Positions 1 to 25,907 of a stretch of 39,430 bases of DNA are shown here, piece by piece (the first letter of the stretch is position 1; each line of letters starts with the position of its first letter). The stretch lies in assembly GCA_949127975.1 (NCBI GenBank), contig CASBRB010000393.1:1-39430 (forward strand), in the 5' to 3' direction. The notes under the pieces were generated by a model that ran no database searches, had not been told where the DNA came from, and saw nothing but the letters and a program-made list of their open reading frames with translations. Made by a program: the position numbers and the translations under genes. Source of the stretch: Oscillatoriales cyanobacterium PMM_0019 (lineage in GTDB: Bacteria; Cyanobacteriota; Cyanobacteriia; Cyanobacteriales; CASBRB01).

Positions 1-34
1 AACAGAGGGAAACCCAAGGTTTTCACACCTTTTT

Positions 35-7423: not shown

Positions 7424-7698
7424 AGTCTACGGTAATTATAAAATTAAATTTTCGTCAATAATGTATAAAATTATGTAATCAACGCCCCCCAAAAAAAATT
7501 AATCAATTTATAAAAACGATAAATGTATCTTAGAATACAAAAATGCTGTTTATTTTTAAGGTATGATCGAGTAAGTGGGCAAATATTAAGGATTTTTAAA
7601 ATTCTTGTTTGCTAAGTAAGATTTAACTATTTAATTAAGTTAGATAGCAGTTTTTTTTTAATTTGTTGATTTTAACCGCTAGTAAGACTGGTGCATCG
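7424..7698 (+). promoter_or_regulatory. AT-rich upstream region of the chemotaxis operon
   Basis: No gene is seen. The stretch is strongly AT-rich. TATGAT at 7562-7567 is a possible -10 hexamer for the plus-strand operon, but no convincing -35 is visible, so the start site is uncertain. The operon could also use an alternative sigma factor. Confidence 0.3.
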
Positions 7699-8871
7699 AT
7701 GACACATACTTCTGTAGAAGCTCGGGTAATGACTCCCACAACAAGACCAGGTTCTGAAGCTCCATCTGTCAAGACAACAGCCTCTCCAGCTAAAGCCTTG
7801 CAACAGATTGTCGCAAAGAAACTGTCCGGACGACTCACCATCGGAGACCCCAACGACAAATCTGTTTTTTGGCGAGTTTATGTAGGCAATGGGCATTTAC
7901 ATTTCGCTACCAGTGCCGTGGGGCAAAAAGAGCGTTTGGCGTATCTATTGCAACGCTACTATCCTCAGAAGGCACATTTGGAATTAGCAGAAGGGCAATT
8001 AGATTATGAATTTATTTGCAATTGCTGGCAATTAGCTCAACTGTCTTTACCAGAAGTTCGTAAGCTGGTTTTTAAGCTGACGCAAGAAGCGCTGGTACAG
8101 TTAATGGCATTGCCCCAAGGTACCATTCAGTTTGAAAAAACCGTTGGACTAGATCCCTTACTGTTATCCGTTCCTTTCAAGGAAACGATTTTACCAGTAC
8201 GCAGCCTTATCAGTCAGTGGGTGCAACTGCGACCAGAAATCTGTTCTCCGTTTCAGCGACCTTTTGTCACAGATATAGAAAAATTTTCCCTGATGCTTCA
8301 GCTCAAGTCTGAAAGCCCTCAAAAAATTCAATTACTCAGCGACGTTCTGACGCACAATCGTTGTATTTATGAAGTAGCATATCGGTTGAGCATGGATGTG
8401 TTGGAATTAGCAATAATGTTGCAACCATTAGTTAAAGCCAGAGCTGTAACTATTAATCCTTATTGCAGTCCTCAAACCGATACTAGACCTGTGATTGCTT
8501 GTGTTGATGACAGTAAAACAGTGCAACGCAATGTCAGACTAATCCTGGAAACTAGCGGATACCGAGTTTTAGAATTGATGGAGCCTGCACGAGCGTTGTC
8601 TGCTCTAGCTCGGCACAAGCCTGCCCTGGTGCTAATGGATATATCTATGCCAGACATTGACGGCTATGAACTTTGTCGCCTGCTACGACAATCTACTGTC
8701 TTACGGGAAATTCCCATAGTAATGTTAACGGGGCGGGATGGGTTGATCGATCGGATTCGGGCTCGTATGGTAGGGGCAACAGATTATGTAACAAAACCCT
8801 TCGATCCACAGCAATTGCTCAGTATTGTCAAAAAATTCATCTGTGAGAATAAAATGGAGGGGGAGAGTTAA
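7699..8871 (+). CDS. hmpA: PatA-type response regulator (PATAN domain plus receiver)
   Basis: 390-aa regulator at the head of a chemotaxis-like operon. The N-terminal PATAN/DUF4388-type region (about residues 30-180) contains AKKLSGRLTIGD and a following FWRVYVGNGHLHFA stretch. The C-terminal CheY-like receiver is about 270-385, with the DD pair in ACVDDSKTVQ, acceptor Asp in LVLMDISMPD near 314, and the Lys in YVTKPFDP. This architecture is that of PatA, PixG, TaxP1/PilG and HmpA, which steer type IV pilus motility or hormogonium development. The reading frame extends upstream to a TTG at 7663, but the ATG at 7699 is preferred because the extra residues match no domain. The stop overlaps the next ATG by one base (TAATG), implying translational coupling. 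Confidence 0.85.
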   Translation: MTHTSVEARVMTPTTRPGSEAPSVKTTASPAKALQQIVAKKLSGRLTIGDPNDKSVFWRVYVGNGHLHFATSAVGQKERLAYLLQRYYPQKAHLELAEGQLDYEFICNCWQLAQLSLPEVRKLVFKLTQEALVQLMALPQGTIQFEKTVGLDPLLLSVPFKETILPVRSLISQWVQLRPEICSPFQRPFVTDIEKFSLMLQLKSESPQKIQLLSDVLTHNRCIYEVAYRLSMDVLELAIMLQPLVKARAVTINPYCSPQTDTRPVIACVDDSKTVQRNVRLILETSGYRVLELMEPARALSALARHKPALVLMDISMPDIDGYELCRLLRQSTVLREIPIVMLTGRDGLIDRIRARMVGATDYVTKPFDPQQLLSIVKKFICENKMEGES

Positions 8872-9236
8872 TGAAAACTGTTTTGGTAGTAGAAGATTCT
8901 AGATGCGAACAACGTCTGATTGTCGCGTTACTCCAACAACTTGACGTCCAGGTAGCAGTAACAGATTCGGCTGAGGCTGCTTTAAAATGGCTGGAGAATA
9001 ATTCTCGACCCGATCTGATAGTCTTAGATGTGATCATGCCTGGTTTGAGTGGACTGGATTTTTGTCGGCAGATCCGAACCAACCCAGAACTAGAAAAGAT
9101 CCCGGTTATTTTTTGCAGCTCCAAAAGTCAGGATTTTGATCGCTTTTGGGCATTACGTCAGGGGGGAAATGCTTACCTCACCAAACCTTATGCCCCTAGT
9201 GACTTAGTTTCAACTGTTTCTGAACATCTTAATTAG
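8871..9236 (+). CDS. hmpB: CheY-like response regulator
   Basis: Stand-alone receiver of 121 aa with no output domain. It has the acidic pair in VVEDSRCEQ, acceptor Asp in IVLDVIMPG near residue 53 and Lys in YLTKPYAP. In cyanobacterial pix/pil/hmp clusters the second gene is such a CheY (PixH, PilH, HmpB). It is thought to receive phosphate from the hybrid CheA and modulate the pilus motors. The start codon overlaps the stop of the preceding PatA-type gene by one base. Confidence 0.85.
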   Translation: MKTVLVVEDSRCEQRLIVALLQQLDVQVAVTDSAEAALKWLENNSRPDLIVLDVIMPGLSGLDFCRQIRTNPELEKIPVIFCSSKSQDFDRFWALRQGGNAYLTKPYAPSDLVSTVSEHLN

Positions 9237-9242
9237 GAATTG

Positions 9243-9716
9243 ATGCTAACTGACTATTTTTATGTGCAGTTACAAGAATCAATCCAGGTGGCACTGTCTG
9301 TGGAAAGCATAACCGAGGTGATTACTCTAGCCAGGGCAGAAATTTGTCCGATTCCAGGGGTGTCACCTGCATTGTTGGGAGTTGTAAATCAGCGGGGCAG
9401 ATTGTTATGGGTTTTGGAGTTAAGCGACTTATTTTTAGAATATCCCGTGAAACGATCGCGCCCTCAGGATCGCTTAACCCTAGTGGTGATAAGCACGAAC
9501 ATCGCCAAAACTCAATGTCAACTTGGTTGCGTGGTATCGGCTCTCAAGGGAATATTACCTCTCGACTCTGCACAATTTCAACCTGTACCTGCTTCTAGTT
9601 CCGCTTCTATTCGCTCTTATGTATCTGGGATTACTGAAATTGAACAGTCATCTGTGGCTATTATCAAGATCGATGCAGTTTTAGCTGCGCTACAAACTTC
9701 TGCTAGTTCTATTTAG
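9243..9716 (+). CDS. hmpC: CheW-like adaptor protein
   Basis: 157-aa CheW-fold protein that should couple the downstream chemoreceptor to the CheA kinase at the membrane. CheW features are the VESITEVI beginning, ICPIPGVSPALLGVVNQRG in the first subdomain, and the hydrophobic beta pattern ending in YVSGI. A TTG three bases earlier (9240) is in frame, but the ATG at 9243 is preferred, with TAGGA a few bases upstream. It is the third gene of the operon, six bases after the CheY stop. Confidence 0.85.
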   Translation: MLTDYFYVQLQESIQVALSVESITEVITLARAEICPIPGVSPALLGVVNQRGRLLWVLELSDLFLEYPVKRSRPQDRLTLVVISTNIAKTQCQLGCVVSALKGILPLDSAQFQPVPASSSASIRSYVSGITEIEQSSVAIIKIDAVLAALQTSASSI

Positions 9717-9728
9717 GGGTGCATATCA

Positions 9729-12350
9729 ATGACAGGTACACGCAACGGTTATACCAATATGGATGAGCTTAAAGAAAGTGAAGAGCTTCTAGCTGAACTT
9801 CAATATGCAGAATTGGTCAATAAAATCAGTAATGCTAATAGTTTAGAGCGATCGGGTCAAATAGAAGAGGCTAAGAAACTCTATCAAGAAGTATTGGAGG
9901 GAGATCCAGCAGGAAATTTGGGTGCAAGTGCCCAGAAAGCTTTAGAAAGTTTAGGGATTCCTGCTAAACCGTATTTGGAGCCAATCTCTAAAAAGGCTGA
10001 TAATTATCAGCAATCAACCACCCTAAAAAAGCCAAAAAGTAATCGCTCTCCATTAAATTTGTGGCAATGGTTTTTTGACCTACCTATTAGCCGAAAACAA
10101 CTCATTGCGTTGGTGAGTTCGGAAATATTTGCTCTAGTGTTAATCGGTATGGGGGTGAGGTGGACGATAGAAAATAGTTTGCGAAACCAATTACTCAACC
10201 AAGCTAAATCAGAAATAGCTGTTACAAAAATTAATTACAATATCAAAATCAATCAAATGGGGCTTGGCTTCCGGGGACAGTCAGATAATAGTGCTATTGT
10301 TGCTGCTGCTAAAGCTCATCAGTCAGGCGAAATATTAGACCAGGATTTGCGGAATCAGGTAAAAAAGATTCTCCAGAATGAAGTTAAGGCTCGTCAGATT
10401 GAATATGCAACCCTAGTTGGCAAAGATTTGCGGATTATTGTCAACGCCAATAGCGATCGAAGAGGTGAGATTTTCAACCCTAATAATTTGGTTCAAGAAG
10501 TTTTTAAAGATCCGAGACAAATTAAAGCGAGTGAGATTGTCAGCCAAGCTGAAATAAACAAAGAAGCACCGCCTGTATGGCCCGGTTTTACCCCTCAGAA
10601 TGCACTAATTCGTTACACGGTTACACCCGTTTTAGATCCAACTACCAAAACAGTAATAGCCGCCTTAGTTTCCGGAGATATTGTCAATGGCAAGTTGCCC
10701 ATTGCCCAGGAAACATTGAAAGCTCTAGGCGGGGGCTACAGTGCCGTTTATTTACACAAAACCACAGGAGAGTTTACATTAGCGACAGCTTTAGAGCAAG
10801 GGGATACTAAAGCATTAGAGCAAGCACAAGGGAATGTAGGCTTGCCTAATACTTCAATTTTGACGGCAGCAGCTAAGGCTCAGGACTTGCCAGTTACTGC
10901 AAGAATAACCATCGGGACGCAGAATTATACGGTGGCAGTAATTGCCTTGCCCAATATTTTCAAAGATGGGGGAAATGGTTCGGTGCCTATTGCTAGTAGT
11001 GAACCCGTTGCTTTTTTGGTGCGAGGAACTCCAGAAACAATACTCAATCAGTTACTGTACCAAAGTCTGCTGGAGCAATTTGGGGTATTTTTCTTAGCTT
11101 TGGTAGTCGTAGGAATTTGGGCCCTGATTCTCCGGCAGGGAATTGCGATCCCAATCGAGCAGTTGCAGCGAACCACTCAGGCATTCTCTGAAGGCAATCA
11201 GGAAACACGAGCAACGGTTTTTGCCACAGATGAAGTGGGGCAGCTAGCAATGACTTTTAATCAAATGGCAGATAGTATCGCTGTTTCTGGTAGAGTGATG
11301 GAAGAACAAGCTCAACTACGACAAGCAGAAGCAGACTTTCAACGGCAGCAGAAAGAACGTCTACAGCAAGGGGTAATTGACTTGTTGATTGACATTGAAG
11401 GAGCGCAACAAGGCGATTTAACCGTCAGGGCAAAGATTGATGAAGGAGATATGGGTTCAATCGCCGATGCCTTTAATGCCACCATTCGCAATTTGCGAGA
11501 GATTGTTTTACAAGTGAAAACGGCTGCTAATCAGGTACATGAGTCTGCTTTTAGTAATGAAGCTTCGGTGCAAAAACTCTCCCAGGAAGCTACAACCCAA
11601 GCCCAAGTAATTGCCGAAACCCTTAATTCTGTAGAAGATGTGGGACAATCTATTCAGTCAGTATCCGATGCAGCAATAGAAGCAGCAGCGATTGCTCGTC
11701 AGGCGCTAGTAGCTGCCGAAGATGGCGATACCACAATGGATGAGACAGTCAGCAGTATTGGCAATATCCGCGCCAGCGTTGCCGAAACTTCCAAAAAGGT
11801 AAAACGTCTGGTAGAGTCTTCTCAGGAAATTTCCAAAATTGTTAATATTATATCAGGAATTTCCGAAAAAACCAACCTTTTGGCTTTTAATGCTTCCATT
11901 GAAGCCTCTAGAGCTGGCCAAAACGGTCAAGGATTCCGGGTGGTTGCTGATGAAGTACGGAAATTAGCAGAGAAGGTGACGGATTCAGCTAAAGAAATTG
12001 AGCAACTTATCAGCACAATTCAACAAGAAACTGCCGAAGTTTTACAAACAATGGAAGCCAGCACTCAGCACGTAGTAACGGGAACAACGTTAGTTACCAA
12101 AACTAAACATACCTTGCAAGGCTTGGCTGGCATTAGCAAAAAAATAGACCAACTTCTACAATCTATTTCATCCAGTACAGTCGATCAAGCTCAAACTTCC
12201 CAAATGGTTAACCAGAAAATGCAAGAAGTAGCAGCGATCGCTCAGACGTCTTCTGACGAATCACAAGCGGTTTCCTCTTCTTTGCAGCAACTGGTTACTG
12301 TTGCCGACAAACTGCAAAACTCTGTATCTCGCTTCCAGGTAGAAAAATAA
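9729..12350 (+). CDS. hmpD: Methyl-accepting chemotaxis protein (PilJ/HmpD type)
   Basis: 873-aa membrane chemoreceptor. Residues 25-75 form a TPR-like helical pair ([15 protein letters not shown]). TM1 is about 124-146, a large extracytoplasmic sensor region spans about 147-445, and TM2 is about 448-467. A HAMP domain follows, then a second HAMP-like segment near 550-605. The MCP signalling domain has its hairpin tip around 705-740 ([19 protein letters not shown], then [16 protein letters not shown]). No bilin-binding GAF domain is present, so it is not a PixJ/PtxD-type photoreceptor; the stimulus is unknown. AGGGG at 9715-9719 is a good ribosome-binding site for ATG 9729. The stop is directly followed by the cheA start. 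Confidence 0.9.
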
Positions 12351-15095
12351 ATGATGTTGGAACCTGCGAAATTAGCGGCAATCCTACAAGAAGCACGGGC
12401 GTGTTTTTTATACGAAGATGCCCCAGACTATTTAGCCATGTTAGAGCAGGGAATGCAGCGGCTACTCTCAGGTGATGCTGCGATTAATCTTCAGACTGAA
12501 TATGCAGATTTAATGCGAGCCGCCCACACCATCAAAGGTGGTGCAGGTTTGGCTGAACTACATACCCTAGCGCAAGTCTCCCACCAAGTAGAAGATTTAC
12601 TTCAAGCTTTGCTTGATGGGCGCGTACCAGAGCCGAAGCCTGCATATCAGTTATTGTCTTTGGGTGTAGAGGAAATCCGCGATTTAGTTGCCTCTGCTAG
12701 CATGGGTAATAGTGCAGCAGATAAACAGGGTTCACCCCTACCCATCACCACCGCCCTTGAGGCTTTTATTGATGAGTTGCCCAAGGAAAATAACTCTCCC
12801 GATGACTGGGCACGCCCTAACATTTCGATTTTAAAACCAGCGCTAGAATTCGATTTAGAAGAGTGTTTGCAGCGGGTAGAAAAGTTACTTCCTGCTCCTT
12901 ACGAGAAACCACGCCCACAGCCTAACCAATCAGCGATTCTCCACCAGGCGCTTTCCACTCTGGTGGATGAGTGCCTACTACTAGGACAAATGCTGTCTTT
13001 AACTTGGTTGCTTGATGTGCAAGAGCGGATACGTCATGCTCTGACTCAACCAAAACCACCCCTAGTTAAGATTGCCACAAAAGCGATCGCTTACATTAGA
13101 AAACTACGCTTAGAAACTCTTAACCCAGCCGCAGAAAAACCAAGGGGTAGGGGCGAACCCAATACTGCTAGCTTAACCTCTCCAGGAAAGGGGAGTCCGA
13201 CTCCTATGTCTAGTACTCGCCCACAGCCAGGTAATACAGCGTCACCGCCAAACACTTTAAGTCTAAATCTGCGGATTCCGGTTTCTAGATTAGATCGGAT
13301 GAGCAACACCGTTGGTGAAATAATGATTAATCACGAGCGGCTTTCCCTGTATCAGACGCAACTGTATCAGGTGAATTTAATGTTGAAAAAACAAGCTCAA
13401 CTGATGCACCCCATCCGTCAACAAGTACAGGACTTTTACAATCGCATGGCAACTCCGCTTTCAGGAGAAGTACAGGTCGATAATTTCAATAAATCTAGTT
13501 TGACTGAAAAAGAGTTCGATCCTCTGGAATTAGATCGGTACACAGAAATTCACAGCACCTTGCAAGATTTCCAAGAATTGATGGTGCGGGTTGATGAAAG
13601 CAGAACCGACATGGAGTTGATTTCCCGTGAATTCCAAGAAGGGCTGGAAGAACTACGTCAACACGTTGATAGCCTACGTGGAGACTTAACAGAGTCAAGA
13701 TTAGTCCCCTTTAGTTTTTTAGCTGATAGGTTTGTTGCACCGTTAGAAAATCTCAACCAGCGGTATAAAAAATCAATTGTCCTAGATGTTATAGGGAAAG
13801 ACACGCTGATAGATCAGGTGATTCTCGAACAACTACAAACCCCCTTAACTCATCTAATGCGCAATGCTTTCGATCACGGCATTGAACCCCCAGAAGAGCG
13901 CTTGTTACTAAATAAGCCGCCAACAGCTAAAATTACTTTATCGGCAGCAGTTGCAGGTAATCGAGTTACCATCGCAATCTCAGATGATGGTCGTGGTATT
14001 GACTGCCAAAAAATATACCAAAAGGCTGTGCAGATGGAATTGTGCAGTTTAGATAGCGCAGCATTAAGTAGGGAGCAAATTCTAGAATTATTGTTTACAC
14101 CTGGGTTTTCTACAGCTCCTAGCGTAACGGATGTTTCCGGGCGAGGGGTGGGGCTTGATGTGGTGCGATCGCAAGTTGGGCGACTGCAAGGCAAGGTGTT
14201 AGTAACAACGGAATTGGCAAAGGGAACAACCTTTACAATTATTCTTCCTTTAACTCTGAGTATTTTACCTTTGTTACTCTGCCGCTGTCAGCAAGAAATT
14301 CTGGCTATTCCTTCTATTAACGTCCTGGAAATTATTGCCTTATCTGAATATAATATCGTGCCTAAGAAGGAGAATCAGGTCATCACCTGGCGCGATCGCA
14401 CTATCCCTCTATATACTTTAATCGAATTACTCCCCTACTCCCAGGAAGAAACTATACCACCATCTGCTGCATTCACACCCTATATAGGAATTGTTCTAGA
14501 CGTAGAGGGTGAGCAAATTGTGGTTGCTGTCAATTCCTTGGTAGGAGAACGAGAACTGGTTTTCAAACCCTTCGATCCTACAATTCCCGTTCCTGCGTAT
14601 GTTGCAGGCTGTACTGTTCTAGGTACAGGTGAGGTGGTGCCGATTTTAGCACCAAGTCACTTTAATCAGTTGATAGCAAAAACCACACCAGCCTTGCCTA
14701 AGAGCAAGCTAGAGTCTGAGCCTGAGGCTACATCAACTATCTTAATCGTTGATGATTCTATTGCAGTGCGTCGGTTGTTAAACCAGGTACTAAGTCAATC
14801 GGGATATCAAGTCGTAGAATGTCGAGACGGCAAAGAAGCATTAGATGAGTTAAATCAATTTCGTCACAGCTTTGATTTAGTAATTTCTGATATTGAAATG
14901 CCCCGTTTGGATGGTTTTACGTTACTTAGAGAAATTCGTGCCCATCCTCGTTGGTATAGCCTGAATTGTATCATGTTGACATCCAGATCGAACGATCGGC
15001 ACCGTCAAAAAGCCATGAGTTTGGGTGCAACAGCTTATTTAACGAAGCCGTTCCAGCCAACCGATTTACTCAAGGCGATTTCTACCCTGGTATGA
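12351..15095 (+). CDS. hmpE: Hybrid CheA histidine kinase with C-terminal receiver
   Basis: 914-aa kinase. The N-terminal Hpt domain has phospho-acceptor H59 in AAHTIKGGAGL. A long linker follows, with a Pro/Ser-rich stretch about 265-305, then a dimerisation region. The HATPase has its N box LMRNAFDHGIEPPEER near 502-517, the DDGRGID box, and GRGVGLDVV. A CheW-like regulatory domain is about 640-775. The receiver is about 793-914, with LIVDDS, acceptor Asp in VISDIEMPRLDG near 846, and YLTKPFQP. All phosphotransfer residues are kept. Unlike Synechocystis PilL, which is split, this CheA is a single chain, as in hmpE/pixL. The ATG abuts the MCP stop, suggesting coupled translation. It is the last gene of the five-gene operon. 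Confidence 0.9.
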   Translation: MMLEPAKLAAILQEARACFLYEDAPDYLAMLEQGMQRLLSGDAAINLQTEYADLMRAAHTIKGGAGLAELHTLAQVSHQVEDLLQALLDGRVPEPKPAYQLLSLGVEEIRDLVASASMGNSAADKQGSPLPITTALEAFIDELPKENNSPDDWARPNISILKPALEFDLEECLQRVEKLLPAPYEKPRPQPNQSAILHQALSTLVDECLLLGQMLSLTWLLDVQERIRHALTQPKPPLVKIATKAIAYIRKLRLETLNPAAEKPRGRGEPNTASLTSPGKGSPTPMSSTRPQPGNTASPPNTLSLNLRIPVSRLDRMSNTVGEIMINHERLSLYQTQLYQVNLMLKKQAQLMHPIRQQVQDFYNRMATPLSGEVQVDNFNKSSLTEKEFDPLELDRYTEIHSTLQDFQELMVRVDESRTDMELISREFQEGLEELRQHVDSLRGDLTESRLVPFSFLADRFVAPLENLNQRYKKSIVLDVIGKDTLIDQVILEQLQTPLTHLMRNAFDHGIEPPEERLLLNKPPTAKITLSAAVAGNRVTIAISDDGRGIDCQKIYQKAVQMELCSLDSAALSREQILELLFTPGFSTAPSVTDVSGRGVGLDVVRSQVGRLQGKVLVTTELAKGTTFTIILPLTLSILPLLLCRCQQEILAIPSINVLEIIALSEYNIVPKKENQVITWRDRTIPLYTLIELLPYSQEETIPPSAAFTPYIGIVLDVEGEQIVVAVNSLVGERELVFKPFDPTIPVPAYVAGCTVLGTGEVVPILAPSHFNQLIAKTTPALPKSKLESEPEATSTILIVDDSIAVRRLLNQVLSQSGYQVVECRDGKEALDELNQFRHSFDLVISDIEMPRLDGFTLLREIRAHPRWYSLNCIMLTSRSNDRHRQKAMSLGATAYLTKPFQPTDLLKAISTLV

Positions 15096-15760: not shown

Positions 15761-17473
15761 TTACAGCTTTTTTAGCAACTTTGACAACTCTTCTACTGGT
15801 AAGGGACGGCTAAACCAATACCCTTGGATGATATCACACTGATGTTGACGGAGGAAAGCTTCTTCTGCTTCGGTTTCTACACCCTCGCTAATTACCTCCA
15901 AGTTCAAACTTTTTGCCATTTGAATCAGAGCCTTTGTAATTGCTGCGTTGGTATCATTCTTGTGAAGACCGCGAATAAAGCATTGATCTATCTTCAAGGT
16001 GTCAAATGTAAATTGTTGCAGGTAGCCTAAAGAAGAGTAGCCAGTACCAAAATCATCTATTGATATTTTTACCCCTAGTTCTTTTAATTTTAGAAAAATC
16101 GCGCTTACTGCTTCTGGGTTCTGCACTAGGATGCTTTCTGTTAATTCTAATTCCAAGCAATTCGGTTGAAAATCTGTTTGGTTTAGAACGTCACAGATTT
16201 TTTTTATTAAATTGGGATCGTTCAATTGATAAACCGATAAATTGACTGACACTTTTAACGAAGTGTGCCCAGCAACTTGCCATGCTTTAGCTTGGGCACA
16301 GGCAGTGCGTAGAACCCATTCACCAATGGGGATAATCAAACCTATCTCCTCTGCCAAAGGAATAAATATTCCTGGGGAAACCATCCCGCGTTTTGGATGG
16401 TGCCAACGGATTAAAGCTTCAACACCAACGATTTGTTCAGTGCGGAGATCTAGTTGGGGTTGATAGTACAAATTTAACTGTTCCCGTTCTAATGCATAGC
16501 GCAGATCGTTTTCTAATGCTAACGGTTCGGAAATAACAATATTTATCTCTTTAGTGTAAAATTGATAGTTATTCCCGCCTTTCCTTTTAGCATCGTGAAT
16601 TGCCGCTGACGTTTGTTTGATTAAATTATCGATGTCATCACTATCACTGGGATAGAAGGAGATGCCGATGCTAGCAGTAATAAAGATTTCATATCCGTTC
16701 AGGTTAAAGGGTTTGGCTAGGACATCGAGAATTAGTTGGGCGAAATTAGCAGCATCTTTTTTTTGATTGATACTCCTGAGGATGATGGCAAATTGATCGT
16801 TGTTCAAGCGAACGACAATGTCATTTTCAATGACACAATTTTTTATTCGTTCAGCTACTGAGCAGAGAACTAAGTCACCGAAGGCAAAGCCCATATTGTC
16901 GTTGATGCGGTTGAACCGATCTAAGCCCAGGCAGAGAAACGGAACTACTTGTTGATTGTTATCCGCTGGAGGTAGTGAATGATGAAGTTGCTCTCGCAAC
17001 CACCGCCGATTTGGTAGCTTTGTCAAGCTGTCGTAGCAATCCAAAGAATTTAGGGTTGTTGCCACTTGGTTAATTGCTGTTGTTTGGTAATGCTCTCGCT
17101 GGGCGGCTTGTTTTTCCAGTCGAGTAGCGATCGCATCTAGCAATTCAGCTCTGCTAAATGGCTTAGTTAGATAATCATCAGCGCCTAGTTTCATTGCTTG
17201 ACGCCAATCTTCTTTAGCGGCTTTTGCAGTAAGAAAAATAAAAGGAATTGTTGCCGTCATGGGCTGAGAACGCAACGCTTTCAGCACCCCATAACCATCT
17301 ACTTTGGGCATCATCACATCGCAAACAATCAAATCGGGTACGTGTTCTAAAGCCAACCGCACTCCGATATCACCATTCTCTGCTCCAATCGGGTCAAAAC
17401 CCTCAATATTAAGCAGTTCAATAATGTTTTCCCGAACAGCTCTTTCGTCTTCTATTACTAAAATCGTAATCAT
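15761..17473 (-). CDS. Response regulator with degenerate GGDEF and intact EAL domains
   Basis: 570-aa soluble protein likely to hydrolyse cyclic di-GMP when phosphorylated. The receiver is 1-120 with acidic residues in VIEDERA, acceptor D52 (CDVMMP) and K104. The GGDEF domain is about 145-305, but its signature is NNDQF at 224-228, so diguanylate cyclase activity is very unlikely; it may bind GTP as a regulatory site. The EAL domain is about 318-565 and has EALIRW at 352-357, NLS near 411, ELTES near 443-447, DDFGTGYSS at 473-481, KIDQCFI and EGVETEAE, the full set expected of an active phosphodiesterase. It lies ten bases after a histidine kinase gene and should be its output in the same operon. 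Confidence 0.92.
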   Translation of the reverse strand: MITILVIEDERAVRENIIELLNIEGFDPIGAENGDIGVRLALEHVPDLIVCDVMMPKVDGYGVLKALRSQPMTATIPFIFLTAKAAKEDWRQAMKLGADDYLTKPFSRAELLDAIATRLEKQAAQREHYQTTAINQVATTLNSLDCYDSLTKLPNRRWLREQLHHSLPPADNNQQVVPFLCLGLDRFNRINDNMGFAFGDLVLCSVAERIKNCVIENDIVVRLNNDQFAIILRSINQKKDAANFAQLILDVLAKPFNLNGYEIFITASIGISFYPSDSDDIDNLIKQTSAAIHDAKRKGGNNYQFYTKEINIVISEPLALENDLRYALEREQLNLYYQPQLDLRTEQIVGVEALIRWHHPKRGMVSPGIFIPLAEEIGLIIPIGEWVLRTACAQAKAWQVAGHTSLKVSVNLSVYQLNDPNLIKKICDVLNQTDFQPNCLELELTESILVQNPEAVSAIFLKLKELGVKISIDDFGTGYSSLGYLQQFTFDTLKIDQCFIRGLHKNDTNAAITKALIQMAKSLNLEVISEGVETEAEEAFLRQHQCDIIQGYWFSRPLPVEELSKLLKKL

Positions 17474-17483
17474 GGATCAATAT

Positions 17484-20081
17484 CTAGTTATTTAACGGCA
17501 GGGTGACTGTAAACGTTGTGCCGACACCGACTTGACTCTTGACATCAATATAGCCACGATGTAAGTCCACACATTTTTTTACTATGGCTAATCCCAGTCC
17601 GGTTCCAGAAATATCACCGACATTTTTAGCTCGATGAAACGAGTCAAACAAATGTTGTCGATCTTCTGGGGGGATACCAATGCCAGTATCTTCAATCTGG
17701 AAGATAGCATTACCATCAGCAATCGCCAGTTTAAAATTTACTGTGCTACCTAGGGGTGAATACTTGAGGGCATTCGATAACAAGTTGCTGAGAATTTGCC
17801 TGAGCAGTTTCTCATCCAGGCAGGGAAGAGTCGAGAGGCTGTGGGACGTTGTTAGGAAGGGAAATTTTCCACTCTCCTTGGTTTCCACTTCGCCTTTCTC
17901 CTGGTTGTCCCCTGTCTGGCTAAACTTAATGATGTGCTGATTGCCGTCAATCAATTGCATTTCTTCCACCAGATCACAGCATAATTGTGACAGAGCTAAC
18001 GGTGCTGGCTTAAAATCTAGTTTACCTGCTTCGGCTTTGCCGACGATCAGCACATCGTCCAACAACTGAGTCATGTGGTGGACGCTGCTTTGAATGCGTT
18101 GGAGATATCCGACTTTTTTCGACTCAGTCAACTTGTGGCTATAATGTTGGATTAATTCGGCCGAAGACAAGATGCTAGAGAGGGGAGTGCGGAACTCGTG
18201 GGAAGTCATAGAGACGAAACGGGATCTTAGTTCACTCAGTTCCCTTTCTTTTGCCAAAGCAGCACGAATTTCTTCTTCTGCCCAGTGGCGCGAGCTGATA
18301 TCGTTGAGGGAGCCGGAAGTGCCGATGATAGTATCGTCAGCAAGCACAGCTTGGGCATGGAGTTCCAGCCATCGGACTTCGCCGTGTTTGGTCATAAAGC
18401 GAGCTTCCTGTCGGCAATAACATTGTATATGGGAAGTTGCAGATTTTAAAGCGTAAGCGGAATCCCAAAACCAAAATCCACCAGCCAAAATTGCCTCGCG
18501 ATCGTCTGGATGAACATAATCTAATAAACTCTTACCTATGCTTTCTTCTACCGAAAAGCCGGTAATCTCTCTCCAGGCGGGATTGAGGAATGTCCATAAA
18601 CCTGCTCTGTCTGTCTGAAAAATCACTTCTTTGACGTTGTTCACCACAGAGCGATACTTGTTTTCACTCTCCCGCAGTGCCTCTAAAAACTGGGCTTGGG
18701 CGAGGGCAATGCCTACATGGTCCCCTAGTTGTTGCAAAAGTTCACATTCAAAGCTAGACCACTGTCGCGGACTGGCGCACTGGTGGGCAATTAGCAGCCC
18801 CCAAAGTTCTTTCCCTTGGAGAATCGGGACTACCAGGTTCGCCTTTACCTCAAACTGTTGCAGGAATTCAATGTGGCAAGGTTGGACGTCAGACTGCTCT
18901 ATATCGGCAATGGCGCGAATCCGTCCTTGACGATATAAATTGAGGTAATTTGGGTTAAAGCAAGGATCGGTAATGTTTTGTGTTAAAATACTACTCCAGC
19001 CAGGAGTTACTGCCTCAGTAATCACTGTTCCAGAGCCATCCGGTTCTAGACGATAGATGATAACTCGGTCAGTTTCGAGAAATTCTTGCACCTCGGTGAC
19101 TGTGGTTTCCAGAATTTCCTCAAGTTGCAAGGACTGGCGGATTTTAAGGGCAATTTGGGCAAACAGGCGCGATCGCTCATTTTGACGCCGCAACTCCTCT
19201 GACGCCTGTTTGCGCTCAGTGATGTCTTCAGTAATCCCAGCAACACGTTGCAGTTGCCCTGTTTGGTTACAAATTGGATAGCAGCGAGTCCACACCCAGC
19301 GGTGTGAACCGTCTGGCAGCACAATGCGAAATTCTTCGTCAAAATTTCGCTTTAGTTGGTTCTGTTTCTTAAATGCTGCTACCACCCGCCCCAAATCCTC
19401 TGGATAAATACTTTCTATCCAGCTTTTCGGCTGCTGGTAAACACTCTGGCAGCTACGCCCGAAGATTTTTTCATACGCTGGGCTGATATAAAGTATCCTT
19501 TCGCCATTGTCCGCGCTTAAGAAAAACACATCATTGATGTTTTCCGCTAGTTGGCGGAACTGCTCCTCGCTTTCCCTGAGCGCCTGTTCTGTGCGCTGGC
19601 GATCTTTAATTTCAATTTCTAGTTTCTGGTTGGTTTGCCATACCTGGGCCGCCCGCTCTGCCACTAAAGACTCCAGATTAGCATTTATTTTGGCTAACTC
19701 AGCTTTGGCTAGAGTCAACTGATTCTGAGTTTGGGCTAAAAGTTGCGGACAGTCAATCAGTAGGGAATAGTGATGGCGCAGGGCAATGGCGACAAAAGCC
19801 ACTATTGCCGTGAGCAAGTCAAAGCCTACCTGGAATCCTAAGGCTGTCAAAGAGTTATACTGTTCCCAGGAAAGTGCGGTTGCCAGCACATGGCTTGAAT
19901 GTCCTAAGGCGCTGCTAAAAAAAATTGCTGTCGTCGCCAGTAGCGGCGTTTTTTTGAGGAAATGCTGCTGCTTAAAACTCAAGTCCCGATAGATTAAGAA
20001 GGTAATAGTAAAGTAGCAAATTGCTATCAAGCTATTAACACTTATAAACATCATATTTAACATTAATTTACCAGACCTCAA
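17484..20081 (-). CDS. Membrane histidine kinase with ethylene-receptor-like sensor, PAS and GAF domains
   Basis: 865-aa sensor kinase. Three hydrophobic helices at about 12-32, 45-70 and 78-102 align with the plant ETR1/cyanobacterial ethylene-binding membrane domain, including Y23 (Tyr32 of ETR1) and H61 (His69). The copper-ligand Cys65 is Ser57 here, and Asp25 is Asn16. A coiled coil follows (115-165), then PAS (about 165-290), GAF (310-460), PAS (465-600), HisKA with phospho-acceptor in MTSHEFRTPLSSIL, and HATPase with SNLLSNALKYSP, DTGIGIPP and GTGLGLAIV. The HATPase has an extra segment of about 25 residues compared with the neighbouring kinase. The ATG overlaps the preceding regulator stop by four bases (ATGA), so translation is coupled. 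Partners should be the regulators on either side. Confidence 0.92.
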   Translation of the reverse strand: MRSGKLMLNMMFISVNSLIAICYFTITFLIYRDLSFKQQHFLKKTPLLATTAIFFSSALGHSSHVLATALSWEQYNSLTALGFQVGFDLLTAIVAFVAIALRHHYSLLIDCPQLLAQTQNQLTLAKAELAKINANLESLVAERAAQVWQTNQKLEIEIKDRQRTEQALRESEEQFRQLAENINDVFFLSADNGERILYISPAYEKIFGRSCQSVYQQPKSWIESIYPEDLGRVVAAFKKQNQLKRNFDEEFRIVLPDGSHRWVWTRCYPICNQTGQLQRVAGITEDITERKQASEELRRQNERSRLFAQIALKIRQSLQLEEILETTVTEVQEFLETDRVIIYRLEPDGSGTVITEAVTPGWSSILTQNITDPCFNPNYLNLYRQGRIRAIADIEQSDVQPCHIEFLQQFEVKANLVVPILQGKELWGLLIAHQCASPRQWSSFECELLQQLGDHVGIALAQAQFLEALRESENKYRSVVNNVKEVIFQTDRAGLWTFLNPAWREITGFSVEESIGKSLLDYVHPDDREAILAGGFWFWDSAYALKSATSHIQCYCRQEARFMTKHGEVRWLELHAQAVLADDTIIGTSGSLNDISSRHWAEEEIRAALAKERELSELRSRFVSMTSHEFRTPLSSILSSAELIQHYSHKLTESKKVGYLQRIQSSVHHMTQLLDDVLIVGKAEAGKLDFKPAPLALSQLCCDLVEEMQLIDGNQHIIKFSQTGDNQEKGEVETKESGKFPFLTTSHSLSTLPCLDEKLLRQILSNLLSNALKYSPLGSTVNFKLAIADGNAIFQIEDTGIGIPPEDRQHLFDSFHRAKNVGDISGTGLGLAIVKKCVDLHRGYIDVKSQVGVGTTFTVTLPLNN

Positions 20082-20464
20082 TGAGTATTCTTTGAGTGGG
20101 AAGGCAGTAGTCGGGTGGCGATCGTTTTCAGCAGTTCTTTGCTGGTAAACGGTTTAGTGATATAATCATCCACTCCCATTTTAATACCTTGACGGTAATC
20201 AGCTTCGGCGGCGTTCCCAGTAAGAAAAATCAAGGGAATTGTTGCCGTCACAGACTCCGATCGCAATGCCGCCAGCACCCCATAACCGTCAATTTCGGGC
20301 ATATTTACATCGCAAATAATCAAATCAGGTAGCTGTTCTTTGGCTAACTGCACGCCAACCCAACCGTTTTCTGCCCCAATTACCTCATAATCCACAACCT
20401 CAAGCAATTCCATTATGTTCTCTCGGATTGCTACCGTGTCTTCAATCACTAAAATTTTCTTCAT
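20078..20464 (-). CDS. Single-domain response regulator
   Basis: 128-aa CheY-like protein with no output domain: acidic residues in VIEDTVAIRE, acceptor Asp in IICDVNMPEIDGYG, and Lys in YITKPFTS. It closely resembles the receiver of the EAL regulator two genes downstream (both share the IRENI/VRENI start and DGYGVL-ALRS), suggesting duplication. Its start overlaps the 3' end of the upstream kinase gene by 23 bases, and its stop overlaps the next kinase by four. It may relay phosphate between the two kinases or act as a phosphate sink. Confidence 0.9.
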   Translation of the reverse strand: MKKILVIEDTVAIRENIMELLEVVDYEVIGAENGWVGVQLAKEQLPDLIICDVNMPEIDGYGVLAALRSESVTATIPLIFLTGNAAEADYRQGIKMGVDDYITKPFTSKELLKTIATRLLPSHSKNTH

Positions 20465-23400
20465 GTTTCTTTGTGCTTGTTTGATAATTTAAAGGAAGCG
20501 TAACTTTAACCGTTGTGCCACAGCCAACTTCACTCTGCACCACGATCCTGCCGCCGTGCAATTCAACACATTTTTTAACAATCGCTAGCCCCAGCCCTGT
20601 CCCCGGAATCGTGCCGACGTTGGTTGCTCGATGAAAGGTATCGAACAAATGTTTTTGGTCTGACGGCGGAATGCCGATGCCTCGATCTTGAACTTGGAAT
20701 ATTGCCAAACCATCCTGACAAACCAGTTTTAAATCAATCTTACCACCTTTAGGAGAATACTTGATGGCATTTGAAAGCAAATTGCTGAAAATGTGCTGCA
20801 ACACTTTTTCGTCCATCCTGTTAGGATAACATTTCCCTTGACTGACAAAGGTAATAGTGTACTGAAACCCCGCACTTTCTTGCATATCTGACGCCAAATT
20901 CTGACCAAATTTTATCAAATCAATTGGGGCTGGGTTCAATTCTAGTCTTCCTGCTTCGGCTTTGCCAATTACCAAAACATCATTCAATAGAGCGATCATT
21001 CGTTGAACGCCAGCTTGAATCCGATGCAAATGTGCGAGTTTTTTCTCTTCAGTAAACTTGTGGCTGTAATGTTCGAGTAATTCCGCAGAAGATAAAATGG
21101 TGGACAGTGGAGTGCGGAACTCGTGGGAAGTCATGGTAACAAAGCGGGATTTGAGTTCACTGAGTTCTTTTTCTTTTTCCAAAGCATTACGAATTTCCAG
21201 TTCTACCTGTTTGCGCTCGGTAATGTCACGCGCTATACCGCGATAACCTTGAAACACCCCTTGCGGAGCGAACATGGGTGTGCCGCTGCTTTCTAAAACC
21301 ACCAAACAGCCTTTTTTATGAATTAGGTTTTTTTCAACATTTACGAACGCTTCTTGCTGAGAGATAAAGTTCTCAAAAATAGGAGTAAATCGTTTTGCCT
21401 CATCCAAAGACATGAATAAAAAGATGCTTTTACCGAGCATCTCGCTGGGGTGGTAACCCAGAATATCGACTAATTTCGGATTAACGTAGGTGAAAACACC
21501 ATTTTTATCGAATTCCCACACCCAGTCGTTAGTCTGCTCAACTAAATTACGGAACTTTTCCTCACTTTCTTGAATCGCCTGTTCTGCCAGCTTGCGTTCA
21601 CTGATGTCACGAGCTATACCGCTATAACCTAGTAAGTTTTCATCTGCATCGAAGAAGGGAACGCCACTGGTTTCCAGAAAAACTTCATGACCATCTTTGT
21701 GGAGGTTTATGTTCTCTAAAGAAGAAAAAGGCTGTTTTGAGGCAACAATAAAACTAAAAATGTTAGCAATACGACTATGCTCTTCCAGATGCATAAAGTC
21801 AAAGGGTGTCTTGCCTAGCACTTCTTCCGGTGCGTAACCTAATAAATCGGAAATGTGGGGACTGACGTAAGTATAAACATTGTTTTCATCCACCTCCCAG
21901 ACTAAATCGCTGGTGGTTTCCACTAAATTGCGGAACCGCTCTTTGCTATCCTTTAGAGCCTGTTCTGCCCGCTTGTATTCGATAGCGATTCCTGCTATGT
22001 GACTACATAACGCTATTAGTTTCCGCTCGTTCAAACTCGGTGAGCGTGGTGTGCTATAATACAGTGCGAAGGTGCCTAACACATTGCCGTTGCTGGCAAA
22101 GATGGGAGTAGAATAACAAGCTCGCAGTCCATGAGACAGCGCCAAATCTCTAAAAGCTTCCCACTTGGGATCTGTGGCAATATCTGATACAATGACAGGT
22201 TCCTGAAGATAAGCTGCTGTGCCGCAACAACCAACATTGGGACCAATGGCTATATTATCAGTCGCCTGCTTGTAGCCTGCCGGAAGGTTCGGAGCTGCAC
22301 CGTAACACAAGTCGATCCCGTTGTCGTCTAGCAGGGAGATAGCACACCACTCGGTTTGGGATTGTTTTTCAACGAACCAAGCTAAAACGTCCAGTACATC
22401 AGAAAGCGCAGCACCTGTGGCTATCATTTCTAGTACACAATTTTGCCCAGCTAACAAAGTTTCCGCCGCTTCCCGTTCCGTAACCTCCTTCTGCAATTGC
22501 TCGTTAGCATTCTTTAATTCAGTAGTTCGTTCTTCGACTTTGATTTCCAGTTCCTCCTTCGCTTGTTGCAGAGCTAATTCTGCCTGCTTACGCTTGGTAA
22601 TGTCAGTAGCAATACCCAGAACTTGACGCTTTTTACCGTCGGGTGATATCAGCGGTTTCTTGATAGTCTGAAACCAATGCACCTTACCTGTAAAATCAGT
22701 AACCGTTTCTTCAGTAATTATTTTTTCGATGCCAGTTTTCATCACTTCTCTGTCGGCACGGAGAAACTGTGCTACTTCTTCTTGATTAAAATTAAAGTCT
22801 GCATCCGATTTGCCGAGTAGGTTTTCGACTGTCGTTCCGTAGATGTCTGCTAGCGCCTGATTGACTAAAGTAAATTTTCCCTTCCACTCTTTGGCGAAAA
22901 TCAAATGCGGAGTTGTGTCAATGACTTGACGAAGAAACTCTTTTTGGTTTTTCAGTAATTCCTCGGCTTGCTTGCGCTGGGTGATGTCTCTGACTGCTGC
23001 CACCCTAACTCGGCAACGATTATAGAGCATGTATTTAGCCTGAATCTCAACGGGGAAAATTCTTCCGTCTTTTCTCAAAGCTATTGACTCATAAGGTGAT
23101 TGATATTCTGATAAAATATGTTCTAATACTAAATCGCGCGTTTCTACTGCTAAGAGTTCTAAGACATCCATCCCAATAAGTTCAGATATTGCATATCCAG
23201 TCATCTCAGACAAAGATTGGTTGGCGTCTATAACTTTGCCATTTACATGAATAACAATTCCTTCAAATGTAGCCTCGCATAGTTTACGAAAATGTTCTTC
23301 ACTTTCTCTGAGCATCAAATCTGCCTGTTTAGCAATAGTCACATCACGGATAATTACCAGGAGTTGATTTCCCGGTGAGGGTAACACCCTAGCCTCAAAA

Positions 23401-24335
23401 AATTTTTCTCCTTCTGGCAAAGTTAATGAATACTCTATAGTAACTATCGATTTGGTATGCAAAACCTGCTGAAACCCTTCTTGCAATTGCCGTCCGACTT
23501 CATCTGGCATAACATGTTGGATTTTTTTCTTCAGGTATACGTTTGGAGGAAAGTAAACCTGAGACATTTGCCCTGCGTAGTAACTCAGGATGGTGCCATC
23601 AGAGTCGAGCCGAAAGTATAAATCCGGGAAAGCTTGGAGAATTTCTAATAGATCGCAGCTATTGTCAAGTAATATATCCTCAGTTCGTTGGCTCTGGGCA
23701 AGTTCTGTTTGTGCCTGTTGATAAAGTTCACATTGGTGGATGGCGACGGCACAGTGTTCAGCGATATCCTTTACTAATTTTAACTCATCAGTAGTCCATT
23801 CACGTTCGCGATCGCACTGATGAAGGCTAATCCCACCTAGGTATTTTTCCTGGTACAACAGCGGCACAATCAAAATGCTGCCAACCCCACAGTCTGTAGA
23901 TGAGTTGGGAATTTCTGGTGGTAGGCTGGTGCCAATCCTGGGAATAACCACTGACTCACCTGCTACCAGTGTCTGATGGTAATAGTTATATAAATCGCTG
24001 CTAGCACCAATCAGACTTGCCCCGGCGGCTTCACTGATGCAGCTAGTTTTGATGTACTTTGAATTAGCTCGGAAAATCACACAGTGACTAACGTTAACCG
24101 CTGCGTGCAACTCCTCTACAGTGATTTGCAGCACCTCATCCAGTACCAACGTACTTCGCATCTGCTTTACAATATGGTTAATCAGTGCTGCCTGCTGAGC
24201 TTGTTGTTCAAGTTGCGCGTAGTCGGCAGCCGTAGGTATTTCTACCTTGATGTCTGCTGTGCGATTTTGCATGTGTTTTTCCAGTTGGGCGTCGTGGCGA
24301 TCGCAAAGAGGTGAGTAAGTACCTTCCAGTTCCAC
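20442..24335 (-). CDS. Large soluble multi-PAS/GAF histidine kinase
   Basis: 1297-aa kinase without membrane helices. Order: GAF (about 45-195), PAS (230-325), PAS/PAC (340-450), PAS/PAC (460-580), coiled coil (580-640), GAF (650-790), PAS/PAC (800-925), PAS/PAC (926-1050), HisKA with SHEFRTPLSTIL, and HATPase with SNLLSNAIKYSP, DRGIGIPP and GTGLGLAIV. The second GAF contains Cys residues (GPNVGCCGTAAYL), but no bilin attachment can be claimed. The given start is a GTG at 24335 inside the right end of a TnpB element. An ATG at 24272, before the first GAF, is the more likely original start, or the original 5' end may have been lost to the insertion. It heads the HK-RR-HK-RR operon. Confidence 0.88.
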   Translation of the reverse strand: MELEGTYSPLCDRHDAQLEKHMQNRTADIKVEIPTAADYAQLEQQAQQAALINHIVKQMRSTLVLDEVLQITVEELHAAVNVSHCVIFRANSKYIKTSCISEAAGASLIGASSDLYNYYHQTLVAGESVVIPRIGTSLPPEIPNSSTDCGVGSILIVPLLYQEKYLGGISLHQCDREREWTTDELKLVKDIAEHCAVAIHQCELYQQAQTELAQSQRTEDILLDNSCDLLEILQAFPDLYFRLDSDGTILSYYAGQMSQVYFPPNVYLKKKIQHVMPDEVGRQLQEGFQQVLHTKSIVTIEYSLTLPEGEKFFEARVLPSPGNQLLVIIRDVTIAKQADLMLRESEEHFRKLCEATFEGIVIHVNGKVIDANQSLSEMTGYAISELIGMDVLELLAVETRDLVLEHILSEYQSPYESIALRKDGRIFPVEIQAKYMLYNRCRVRVAAVRDITQRKQAEELLKNQKEFLRQVIDTTPHLIFAKEWKGKFTLVNQALADIYGTTVENLLGKSDADFNFNQEEVAQFLRADREVMKTGIEKIITEETVTDFTGKVHWFQTIKKPLISPDGKKRQVLGIATDITKRKQAELALQQAKEELEIKVEERTTELKNANEQLQKEVTEREAAETLLAGQNCVLEMIATGAALSDVLDVLAWFVEKQSQTEWCAISLLDDNGIDLCYGAAPNLPAGYKQATDNIAIGPNVGCCGTAAYLQEPVIVSDIATDPKWEAFRDLALSHGLRACYSTPIFASNGNVLGTFALYYSTPRSPSLNERKLIALCSHIAGIAIEYKRAEQALKDSKERFRNLVETTSDLVWEVDENNVYTYVSPHISDLLGYAPEEVLGKTPFDFMHLEEHSRIANIFSFIVASKQPFSSLENINLHKDGHEVFLETSGVPFFDADENLLGYSGIARDISERKLAEQAIQESEEKFRNLVEQTNDWVWEFDKNGVFTYVNPKLVDILGYHPSEMLGKSIFLFMSLDEAKRFTPIFENFISQQEAFVNVEKNLIHKKGCLVVLESSGTPMFAPQGVFQGYRGIARDITERKQVELEIRNALEKEKELSELKSRFVTMTSHEFRTPLSTILSSAELLEHYSHKFTEEKKLAHLHRIQAGVQRMIALLNDVLVIGKAEAGRLELNPAPIDLIKFGQNLASDMQESAGFQYTITFVSQGKCYPNRMDEKVLQHIFSNLLSNAIKYSPKGGKIDLKLVCQDGLAIFQVQDRGIGIPPSDQKHLFDTFHRATNVGTIPGTGLGLAIVKKCVELHGGRIVVQSEVGCGTTVKVTLPLNYQTSTKKHEENFSD

Positions 24336-24336
24336 T

Positions 24337-24367
24337 GAACCTCCCCACGGCTAAAGCCGGGGGGTTC
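24337..24367 (-). ncRNA. Right-end hairpin and predicted omega-RNA 3' scaffold
   Basis: Stem-loop at the right end of the tnpB element overlapping the last codons of tnpB. In characterised TnpB systems the guide RNA scaffold comes from this region, and the guide is the host sequence directly beyond the right end. Here that would be the first bases of the kinase gene (positions below about 24333). Transcription of such an RNA is inferred, not shown. Confidence 0.45.
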
Positions 24368-25907
24368 TAAAATCACCAACCAGGTTTCGCATATCCTCAC
24401 CGATTTCGACTTCCTGATAGCTATTAGATTCCGCAGCAATCAACTCTGGCCCTTCGACTACGCTCAGGGCGGAGACGGAGTGACCATCTCTCTTGTTGAT
24501 TAAAATTGATTCAGACTTCCACTCCGCTTGCATGATTTGTTCCAAACACAACCAGCCATCACTAGCTAATTCGAGTGAAAGTTTTGACTCTGAATCAACA
24601 TATCTCGCCAAAAACCCTGAGAATAAATCCCGATGTAATTCAACTCCACATTCACACTTATGAACTCGTTGACTTAGAGATTTTTTCTGTTTGATACCAC
24701 AAATACACATCTGTGATAAAGCCGTGGTTCTTGTCGAGAATTTGTGAACACTAGCACCAGCACTTTCAGCCTTGCGCTCAAGCTCACTCATGAAAAAACC
24801 TGGAGCTTTATATCCTATAGATTTGCCCCAAATTTTCTGCCAAGCTTTGATGGAGACATTTTCCATTTTAAAACTGTCTCCCATCTTTAACACTTTATTG
24901 ATTAACCTTCCTTGGGAGGTTTCTCTTTGCTCTGCTTGTTTACGATGTATCTCTCTCAATTTCGCCGAATCTTTTTTGTAAGTATTGGTGTTGTTCCATA
25001 ACTTTCGACCTTTCTTAATCTTACCTTTCTTTTTTCGTCCAGTTTTATGAAAAAAGTTGGGCTCATAATTCTGAGGATTATTAGCTCTCCTAGAACGCTC
25101 AATTTTCCTCTGTAATTGCTTAATTCCTTTCTGTAATTGCTCAATCTCAGTACAGAATCCCTCTATTAATGCTGAATCATCGCCAACAGCGCCGATAACT
25201 GAGACATTCACATCAATGCCAACAACACCTTTACCTAACTGGTTTTTCGGCTTTTGGTATGGCAATCCCTTACAAACTAACTGAGCAAAAAATCTAGCTT
25301 TCCCATTAATCCAGCGACGCAATATCCGCACGTACTTTATGGGACATGATAAAGCATACTGTATTACTTCATCTCGATTATCTATAATCGCTTTTAAGGT
25401 TAAATTATGTAATTCACTCTTCCAGATTACCTGATTATTTTTCCACCGAATCCCCTGTTTATTACTTTTGCCCTCTAATGATGAAAACTGTCCCTTCTGC
25501 TTAAATCTTACCCGATCCGCCTTGCCAAATAATACTCGTTCTGTTGCCTTAAATGCTCTCGTGGCTACCTTTTGAATTGTATTACTATCTAAATGTTGTT
25601 TAATCCATTTAGAAGATGTAGCAACAATTGTGGCATAAGCTTGTATATCATAGTCACTATATCTATATGCCTTACGTGCTTTAAGAAATGCCTCACTTCG
25701 CTCTTTTTTCTTATCTCTAGAAATTTGTCTAGCTGCTTGATATGCCTCAGACTCCCTGACTAATTGCATCCGTTTCAAGCATTCGGATAAGCAAGCATTA
25801 TACAAATTTTGTCCTGCCTTCAAGCGAGACTCTAGGATAGCTATATCCCTAGATGTCGTTACCAGTGGTAACTCTACGACAAAGTTTTCGGTCTCAGTTC
25901 TTGGCAC
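24351..25907 (-). CDS. tnpB: TnpB RNA-guided nuclease, apparently catalytically intact
   Basis: 518-aa TnpB/IS1341-family protein, longer than the usual roughly 370-430. RuvC residues are D232 (VVGIDVNV), E349 (FKMENVS) and D427 (ELHRDLFSG). The zinc ribbon is C401-x-C403 and C418-x-C420. The last motif is HRDLFSGFLAR rather than the common DRDxNAAxN, so activity needs testing. The C-terminal tail after about 440 contains a translated palindromic repeat (SALSVVEGPE, about 479-488) and ends within the right-end hairpin. The start is GTG at 25907, preceded by a good AAGGTGGTG ribosome-binding site. Genes of this kind probably keep the element in place by cutting excised donor sites. Confidence 0.88.
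   Translation of the reverse strand: MPRTETENFVVELPLVTTSRDIAILESRLKAGQNLYNACLSECLKRMQLVRESEAYQAARQISRDKKKERSEAFLKARKAYRYSDYDIQAYATIVATSSKWIKQHLDSNTIQKVATRAFKATERVLFGKADRVRFKQKGQFSSLEGKSNKQGIRWKNNQVIWKSELHNLTLKAIIDNRDEVIQYALSCPIKYVRILRRWINGKARFFAQLVCKGLPYQKPKNQLGKGVVGIDVNVSVIGAVGDDSALIEGFCTEIEQLQKGIKQLQRKIERSRRANNPQNYEPNFFHKTGRKKKGKIKKGRKLWNNTNTYKKDSAKLREIHRKQAEQRETSQGRLINKVLKMGDSFKMENVSIKAWQKIWGKSIGYKAPGFFMSELERKAESAGASVHKFSTRTTALSQMCICGIKQKKSLSQRVHKCECGVELHRDLFSGFLARYVDSESKLSLELASDGWLCLEQIMQAEWKSESILINKRDGHSVSALSVVEGPELIAAESNSYQEVEIGEDMRNLVGDFRTPRL
24449..24470. repeat. 22-bp palindromic repeat inside the tnpB 3' region
   Basis: Imperfect palindrome with GCCCT and AGGGC arms around TCGACTACGCTC. 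From general knowledge this motif is common in many bacterial genomes as a dispersed palindromic repeat. It is in frame in tnpB and codes part of the tail (residues about 479-488). Confidence 0.6.

Follow-up and report, generated by a model that had tools for sequence, protein, structure and literature searches.

A distinct ETR1-like family with a predicted rebuilt site includes the membrane domain of a putative light-sensing cyanobacterial histidine kinase

Introduction

ETR1 is the model for copper-based gas sensing in the membrane. A sequence-only reading of the cyanobacterial DNA analysed here (the window, 39,430 nucleotides in all) proposed that the membrane region of a histidine kinase aligns to ETR1-type receptors with Ser in place of the copper-ligand cysteine, and that it is therefore either a relative that is blind to ethylene or a sensor for another signal. 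This raises the question of whether the region is a true homologue of the ethylene-binding domain and, if so, what such a domain might sense. The joining of an ETR1-type domain and a cyanobacteriochrome on one kinase is already known (UirS, PMC5812497); we regard as the main finding of this work that the domain belongs to an ETR1-like family of its own, one whose ETR1 site has been rebuilt.

Results

The kinase, HK1, has the predicted order ETR-like membrane domain, coil, PAS, GAF of the DXCF cyanobacteriochrome type, PAS, HisKA and HATPase. The PAS, GAF, PAS, HisKA and HATPase_c domains all gave high scores in Pfam.

17484..20081, minus strand: sensor histidine kinase HK1, open reading frame of 865 amino acids from TTG, probably 859 from Met7
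19767..20063, minus strand: ETR1_N-like membrane domain, about residues 7-105, with three hydrophobic stretches
19233..19496, minus strand: PAS_3 domain, residues 196-283
18702..19124, minus strand: GAF domain, DXCF cyanobacteriochrome type, residues 320-460
18297..18659, minus strand: PAS domain, residues 475-595
17490..18227, minus strand: HisKA and HATPase_c, residues 619-864

Met7 rather than the TTG codon is probably the real start, because close relatives begin at the Met7 position; residue numbers of HK1 (Asn16, Tyr23, Ser57, His61 and so on) refer to the 865-residue numbering from TTG. A single-sequence AlphaFold2 model had a pLDDT of 54 and a pTM of 0.30 and gave no usable structure.

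When the window protein was compared on its own with the Pfam model ETR1_N (PF25487), it scored 10.8 bits (E 0.63), below the gathering cut-off of 27, and a profile built from canonical receptors of cyanobacteria gave the window sequence a probability of 6.7%. On the Pfam score alone the likeness could be due to chance, and relatives of the domain were used instead. Its close kin scored 24.5-24.9 bits with hmmscan (E 2-3e-5), just under the cut-off, and two relatives passed it in a six-frame search with 30.7 and 28.0 bits (the first of these scored 24.5 by hmmscan). The family profile matched the profile of canonical receptors with an E value of 1.1e-6 and a score of 40, whereas a reversed profile scored 7 and unrelated membrane proteins of the window 12-17. 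Since relatives lie near or over the Pfam cut-off and the family profile matches while the controls fail, the family and the canonical ETR1-type receptors are homologous, though remote. The profile search suggested in the sequence-only reading thus stayed under the cut-off for the window sequence and succeeded for the family.

The alignment proposed in that reading was borne out. Pfam places window residues 13-100 on profile positions 7-86 in the register given earlier, the family alignment has the same register, and the equivalences Asn16 to Asp25, Tyr23 to Tyr32, Ser57 to Cys65 and His61 to His69 were all recovered when AtETR1 was aligned with 68 family domains. The reference used in this alignment and in the tree described below is taken to be the AtETR1 sequence. 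Although the scores of the window sequence taken alone would allow that there is no homology, and that three hydrophobic helices have Tyr and His correctly placed by chance, the profile-profile match with its failing controls, the scores of the relatives and a register that is identical across helices 1 and 2 make this extremely unlikely. A better match to an unrelated sensor family, which would have spoken against the alignment, was found neither in Pfam nor in a sequence search of the PDB; the latter search also returned no relative of this domain with a solved structure, and the plasmid sequences searched for it gave no match. A contig scan with the window sequence found one Frankia locus only, and this locus turned out to be a genuine relative.

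The family was collected by searching residues 1-129 of the window protein against 291 cyanobacterial genomes, which provided relatives, and then a profile of 14 relatives against 390 cyanobacterial genomes, where an E value below 1e-30 was counted as a strong match. Such matches were present in about 20 of the 390 genomes (~5% of the sample), and members also occur in some Actinomycetota (L164-L168; Frankia L118). When the 68 family domains were placed in a tree with AtETR1 and seven canonical receptors, the Cys column being excluded, the family split from the canonical receptors at 100/99 support and the actinomycete members, Frankia sp. AgB32 among them, fell on one branch. The window domain belongs to this distinct ETR1-like family, in which the ETR1 site is rebuilt; no description of it was found in the open-access literature searched, subscription papers lying outside that search. 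The positions concerned are as follows.

20034..20036, minus strand: Asn16 (ETR1 Asp25), Asn in 65 of 68 family domains
20013..20015, minus strand: Tyr23 (ETR1 Tyr32), Tyr in 67 of 68, one being truncated
19920..19922, minus strand: Phe54 (ETR1 Ile62), Phe in 68 of 68
19911..19913, minus strand: Ser57, codon AGC (ETR1 Cys65), Cys in 60 of 68
19899..19901, minus strand: His61 (ETR1 His69), His in 65 of 68
19890..19892, minus strand: His64 (ETR1 Asn72), family-specific second His three residues past the His69 position, His in 62 of 68
19830..19832, minus strand: Gln84, family-specific polar residue ahead of helix 3, Gln in 62 of 68
19818..19820, minus strand: Asp88 (ETR1 Lys91), Asp in 64 of 68

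The window has all six residues of the family signature (N25, Y32, F62, H69, H72 and D91 in ETR1 numbering) and lacks the Cys at position 65, a family trait that is not universal. Pro36 is found in none of the 68 domains, and the position of Cys22 is Cys in 51. Five positions are conserved best, namely F54, Y23, N16, H61 and D88, and Q84 and H64 fall within the top nine; that these are mostly residues of the putative site suggests a working membrane site, not a plain anchor. With spacings of i/i+7, i/i+3 and i/i+4, the pairs N16/Y23, H61/H64 and Q84/D88 would each lie on a single helix face. Members that bear the Cys (L007, L019, L104, L008, L009; L164-L167; Frankia L118) show the motif C-x3-H-x2-H. 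They have the Asn-Tyr / His-x2-His / Asp set in common with the window, the nearest at 44-55% identity, and, unlike the window protein, they keep the Cys and the full-length ones checked are without a cyanobacteriochrome. The family-wide Asn for Asp25, the Asp at Lys91, His64, the local nature of Ser57 and the cyanobacteriochrome in the same protein all go beyond what had been noted earlier. A further ETR1_N variant (L044, L046-L048, L050) has Asn at Asp25, retains Cys and His, carries His in the Lys91 column and has a shortened loop between helices 2 and 3.

The codon of Ser57, AGC, is one base away from the Cys codon TGC and adjoins another AGC. This, and an assembly of 512 contigs, might point to a sequencing or assembly error that conceals a true TGC codon and the normal family Cys, but a random error at precisely this base is improbable and the Cys has been lost independently elsewhere, including to Ser in the actinomycete L168, so that we consider an error very improbable. 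The domains without Cys are those of the window (Ser), L108/L109 (Gly, deletion), L010/L013 (Gly), L112/L113 (Ser, Gly) and L168. Parsimony on the tree requires five Cys changes, indicating about five independent losses. A single Cys-lacking clade, the phylogeny of which had been recommended in the sequence-only reading, was rejected, as the losses are scattered over the tree; Ser57 is a local loss in the window sequence and not a family-defining feature.

In four of these losses (window, L108/L109, L010/L013 and L168) none of the residues N, Y, H, H and D has changed, and the retained residues therefore look as if they are still selected, which is suggestive and not proof. L112/L113, where the fifth loss falls, have given up both His and the Asp as well, and illustrate how a decayed site looks. 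By arithmetic from the branch lengths of the tree, placing the losses midway on the four branches gives about six changes expected at the five sites at the average rate, and none was seen; counting only branches that surely follow the loss gives about one expected change, none seen, which is not significant. Retention of the other site residues in the window could thus be a lag after the loss of Cys. Some members of the window's own clade have kept Cys and lost other residues: in L110/L111 the His64 position is Gln and the Asp88 position Val, and in L130 both His are Tyr. Since these members keep the Cys and have lost His or Asp, constraint has loosened in places within the clade. Such a pattern of relaxed constraint, with different site residues lost, together with the loss of Cys in the window and about four other times, would suit a degenerate sensor, in which the membrane domain would now do no more than anchor the protein and provide a dimer contact, leaving the cyanobacteriochrome, through light, and the PAS domains to drive the kinase; the five residues intact in the window, L108, L109, L010, L013 and L168 argue against it.

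The full list of seven residues for ethylene binding by ETR1 (D25, Y32, I35, P36, I62, C65 and H69), Tyr32 included, is reportedly that of Wang et al. 2006. The window retains three of the seven (Y32, I35 and H69), and four are changed. The requirement for seven residues in ETR1 is documented (PMC6586836, PMC11819568), and binding is abolished when the Cys of either AtETR1 or the bacterial SynEtr1 is mutated, as it is when Asp25 of AtETR1 is mutated (PMC11819568). Because only three residues are kept and the Cys is needed in SynEtr1 too, ethylene binding of the ETR1 type is unlikely for the window domain. It is possible to imagine that copper and ethylene are still bound through His61, His64 and either Ser57 or Cys22 in place of Cys65, given that His61 and Tyr23 are kept and that His64 and Cys22 could add ligands; the mutational results for Cys and Asp25, and the additional changes at Asp25, Pro36 and Ile62, lead us to regard this as improbable. 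For ETR1 it has been proposed that the side chain of Asp25 holds His69 in place and forms a polar bond to Lys91 on helix 3 (PMC11819568), and the pair corresponds to Asn and Asp in the window's family. As Asp25, Pro36 and Ile62 are absent from the Cys-bearing relatives, ETR1-type binding is doubtful for these also. The changes that define the family (Asn25, Phe62, His72, Asp91 and no Pro36) are older than the loss of Cys in the window. The suggestion that the domain is blind to ethylene or senses another signal is consistent with the four changed residues, but the missing Cys does not define the group, as 60 of the 68 domains keep it.

Two other ETR1_N proteins of the window's own genome score over the cut-off. 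L001 has all seven ethylene-binding residues, by which ethylene sensing would be covered elsewhere in the genome, and L002 has Ser for Pro36. A third protein of this genome, L003, is a kinase with the first ETR1_N helix only (profile 2-39, 25.6 bits), followed directly by a PAS-like region, and appears to be a truncated receptor.

The GAF domain of HK1 has Cys374 in a DPCF motif and, 28 residues further on, Cys402 in PCH. It matched RcaE with an E value of 9e-54 (8k9o; the name RcaE is on entry 7ckv, which has an identical sequence), and its alignment to the GAF domain of 4fof/4glq and 3vv4, which we take to be TePixJ, is gapless across both cysteines. DXCF cyanobacteriochromes are defined by a canonical Cys and a second Cys in a DXCF motif within a phytochrome-type GAF domain (PMC11284453). 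With Cys402 and Cys374, HK1 has both, and is for this reason likely to be a violet/blue-green photoreceptor. None of nine full-length close relatives has a DXCF GAF domain, so that the pairing with the ETR-like domain probably arose in the window's lineage, and light input is not a family trait. That none of the other full-length proteins checked carries a DXCF GAF domain would also fit the degenerate sensor described above, as the main input may have shifted to light; on balance we judge degeneration unlikely, although it carries real weight.

HK1 lies third in a row of four minus-strand genes (HK2, receiver, HK1, REC-GGDEF-EAL) that overlap or are 10 nt apart, a presumed operon whose partners are assigned from gene overlap.

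20442..24335, minus strand: HK2, second multi-PAS/GAF histidine kinase, first gene of the presumed operon
20078..20464, minus strand: single-domain response regulator, 4-nt overlap with HK1
15761..17473, minus strand: response regulator REC-GGDEF-EAL, starting 10 nt past HK1

In the last of these proteins the GGDEF motif is degenerate (NNDQF) and the EAL motifs are present, and for this reason it is probably a phosphodiesterase only, with c-di-GMP breakdown as the output. The order HK2-receiver-kinase-EAL was not found around the relatives fetched; in L155 a similar receiver protein adjoins its kinase.

Discussion

We propose that this region serves as membrane sensor in a light-responsive histidine kinase whose construction resembles that of UirS/SynEtr1 of Synechocystis. 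In the family the ETR1 site has been rebuilt (Asn at Asp25, Asp at Lys91, Phe at Ile62, an extra His and no Pro36), after which the window copy has lost the Cys. Such a domain would not bind ethylene in the ETR1 way, but the Asn-Tyr / His-His / Gln-Asp helix faces may form an intramembrane polar site made up of His61, His64 and Asp88, perhaps with Ser57 or Cys22. Judging from the residue types, this site probably holds a metal, and it could sense another small ligand, a metal or a redox state. Light, through the GAF domain, and the membrane signal would jointly set kinase activity, and phosphate would pass to the receiver proteins and alter c-di-GMP breakdown through the EAL domain. We hold the chances to be about even that HK1 is a light-sensing kinase whose membrane module has no ethylene binding and keeps a His/His/Asp site for another ligand. 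The broader proposal that the ethylene-receptor fold has given rise to a second kind of intramembrane sensor in cyanobacteria and Actinomycetota, with an Asn-Tyr / (Cys)-His-His / Gln-Asp site, a metal for a non-ethylene ligand and a Cys that is dispensable in several lineages including the window, is tentative, and we would sooner expect it to fail than to hold.

The closest parallel is the Synechocystis protein UirS / SynEtr1 / PixA (Slr1212), which likewise joins a three-helix ETR1-type domain and a dual-Cys cyanobacteriochrome GAF domain on one histidine kinase, answers to both UV-A and ethylene and, as the window kinase seems to do, works with response regulators (PMC5812497). SynEtr1 binds ethylene and requires its Cys. 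In the window domain, by contrast, Ser stands at the Cys position, Asn replaces Asp25, Asp replaces Lys91 and there is a second His; the regulator next to the kinase is REC-GGDEF-EAL, where UirS has the UirR/LsiR pair. With AtETR1 and canonical bacterial receptors (PF25487; for example AzoEtr1) the window domain shares helix order, register, Tyr32, Ile35 and His69, but it differs by D25N, P36T, I62F, C65S, N72H, K91D and S98A and lies under the Pfam cut-off. TePixJ and other DXCF cyanobacteriochromes (4glq, 3vv4) have the counterparts of Cys374 and Cys402 in register; TePixJ has a chemoreceptor output and the window protein, whose DXCF type is known from its sequence, a kinase output.

A family with Asn and Asp for Asp25 and Lys91, an added His and a Cys that can be lost offers natural versions of ETR1 mutations, and its rebuilt site suggests that the fold may serve beyond ethylene. 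It also advises caution, in that not every ETR1-like bacterial kinase should be annotated as an ethylene receptor.

Several other genes of the window may be mentioned. A TnpB-like gene (24351-25907, minus strand; guided_TnpB, 87 bits against an NCBIfam cut-off of 100) ends 15 nt ahead of the first gene of the presumed operon on the same strand. Convergent with the kinase operon is a pix/tax-like set at 7663-15095 on the plus strand, comprising DUF4388-REC, REC, CheW, HAMP-MCP and CheA-REC; such chemosensory sets are usually tied to pilus motility. The window also encodes a pair of class III cyclases and two MscS channels bearing cyclic-nucleotide-binding domains, which together perhaps form a cAMP/cGMP-gated osmotic circuit.

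29630-31090, minus strand, and 2193-3656, plus strand: MscS channels
31132-33339, minus strand, and 115-1626, minus strand: class III cyclases
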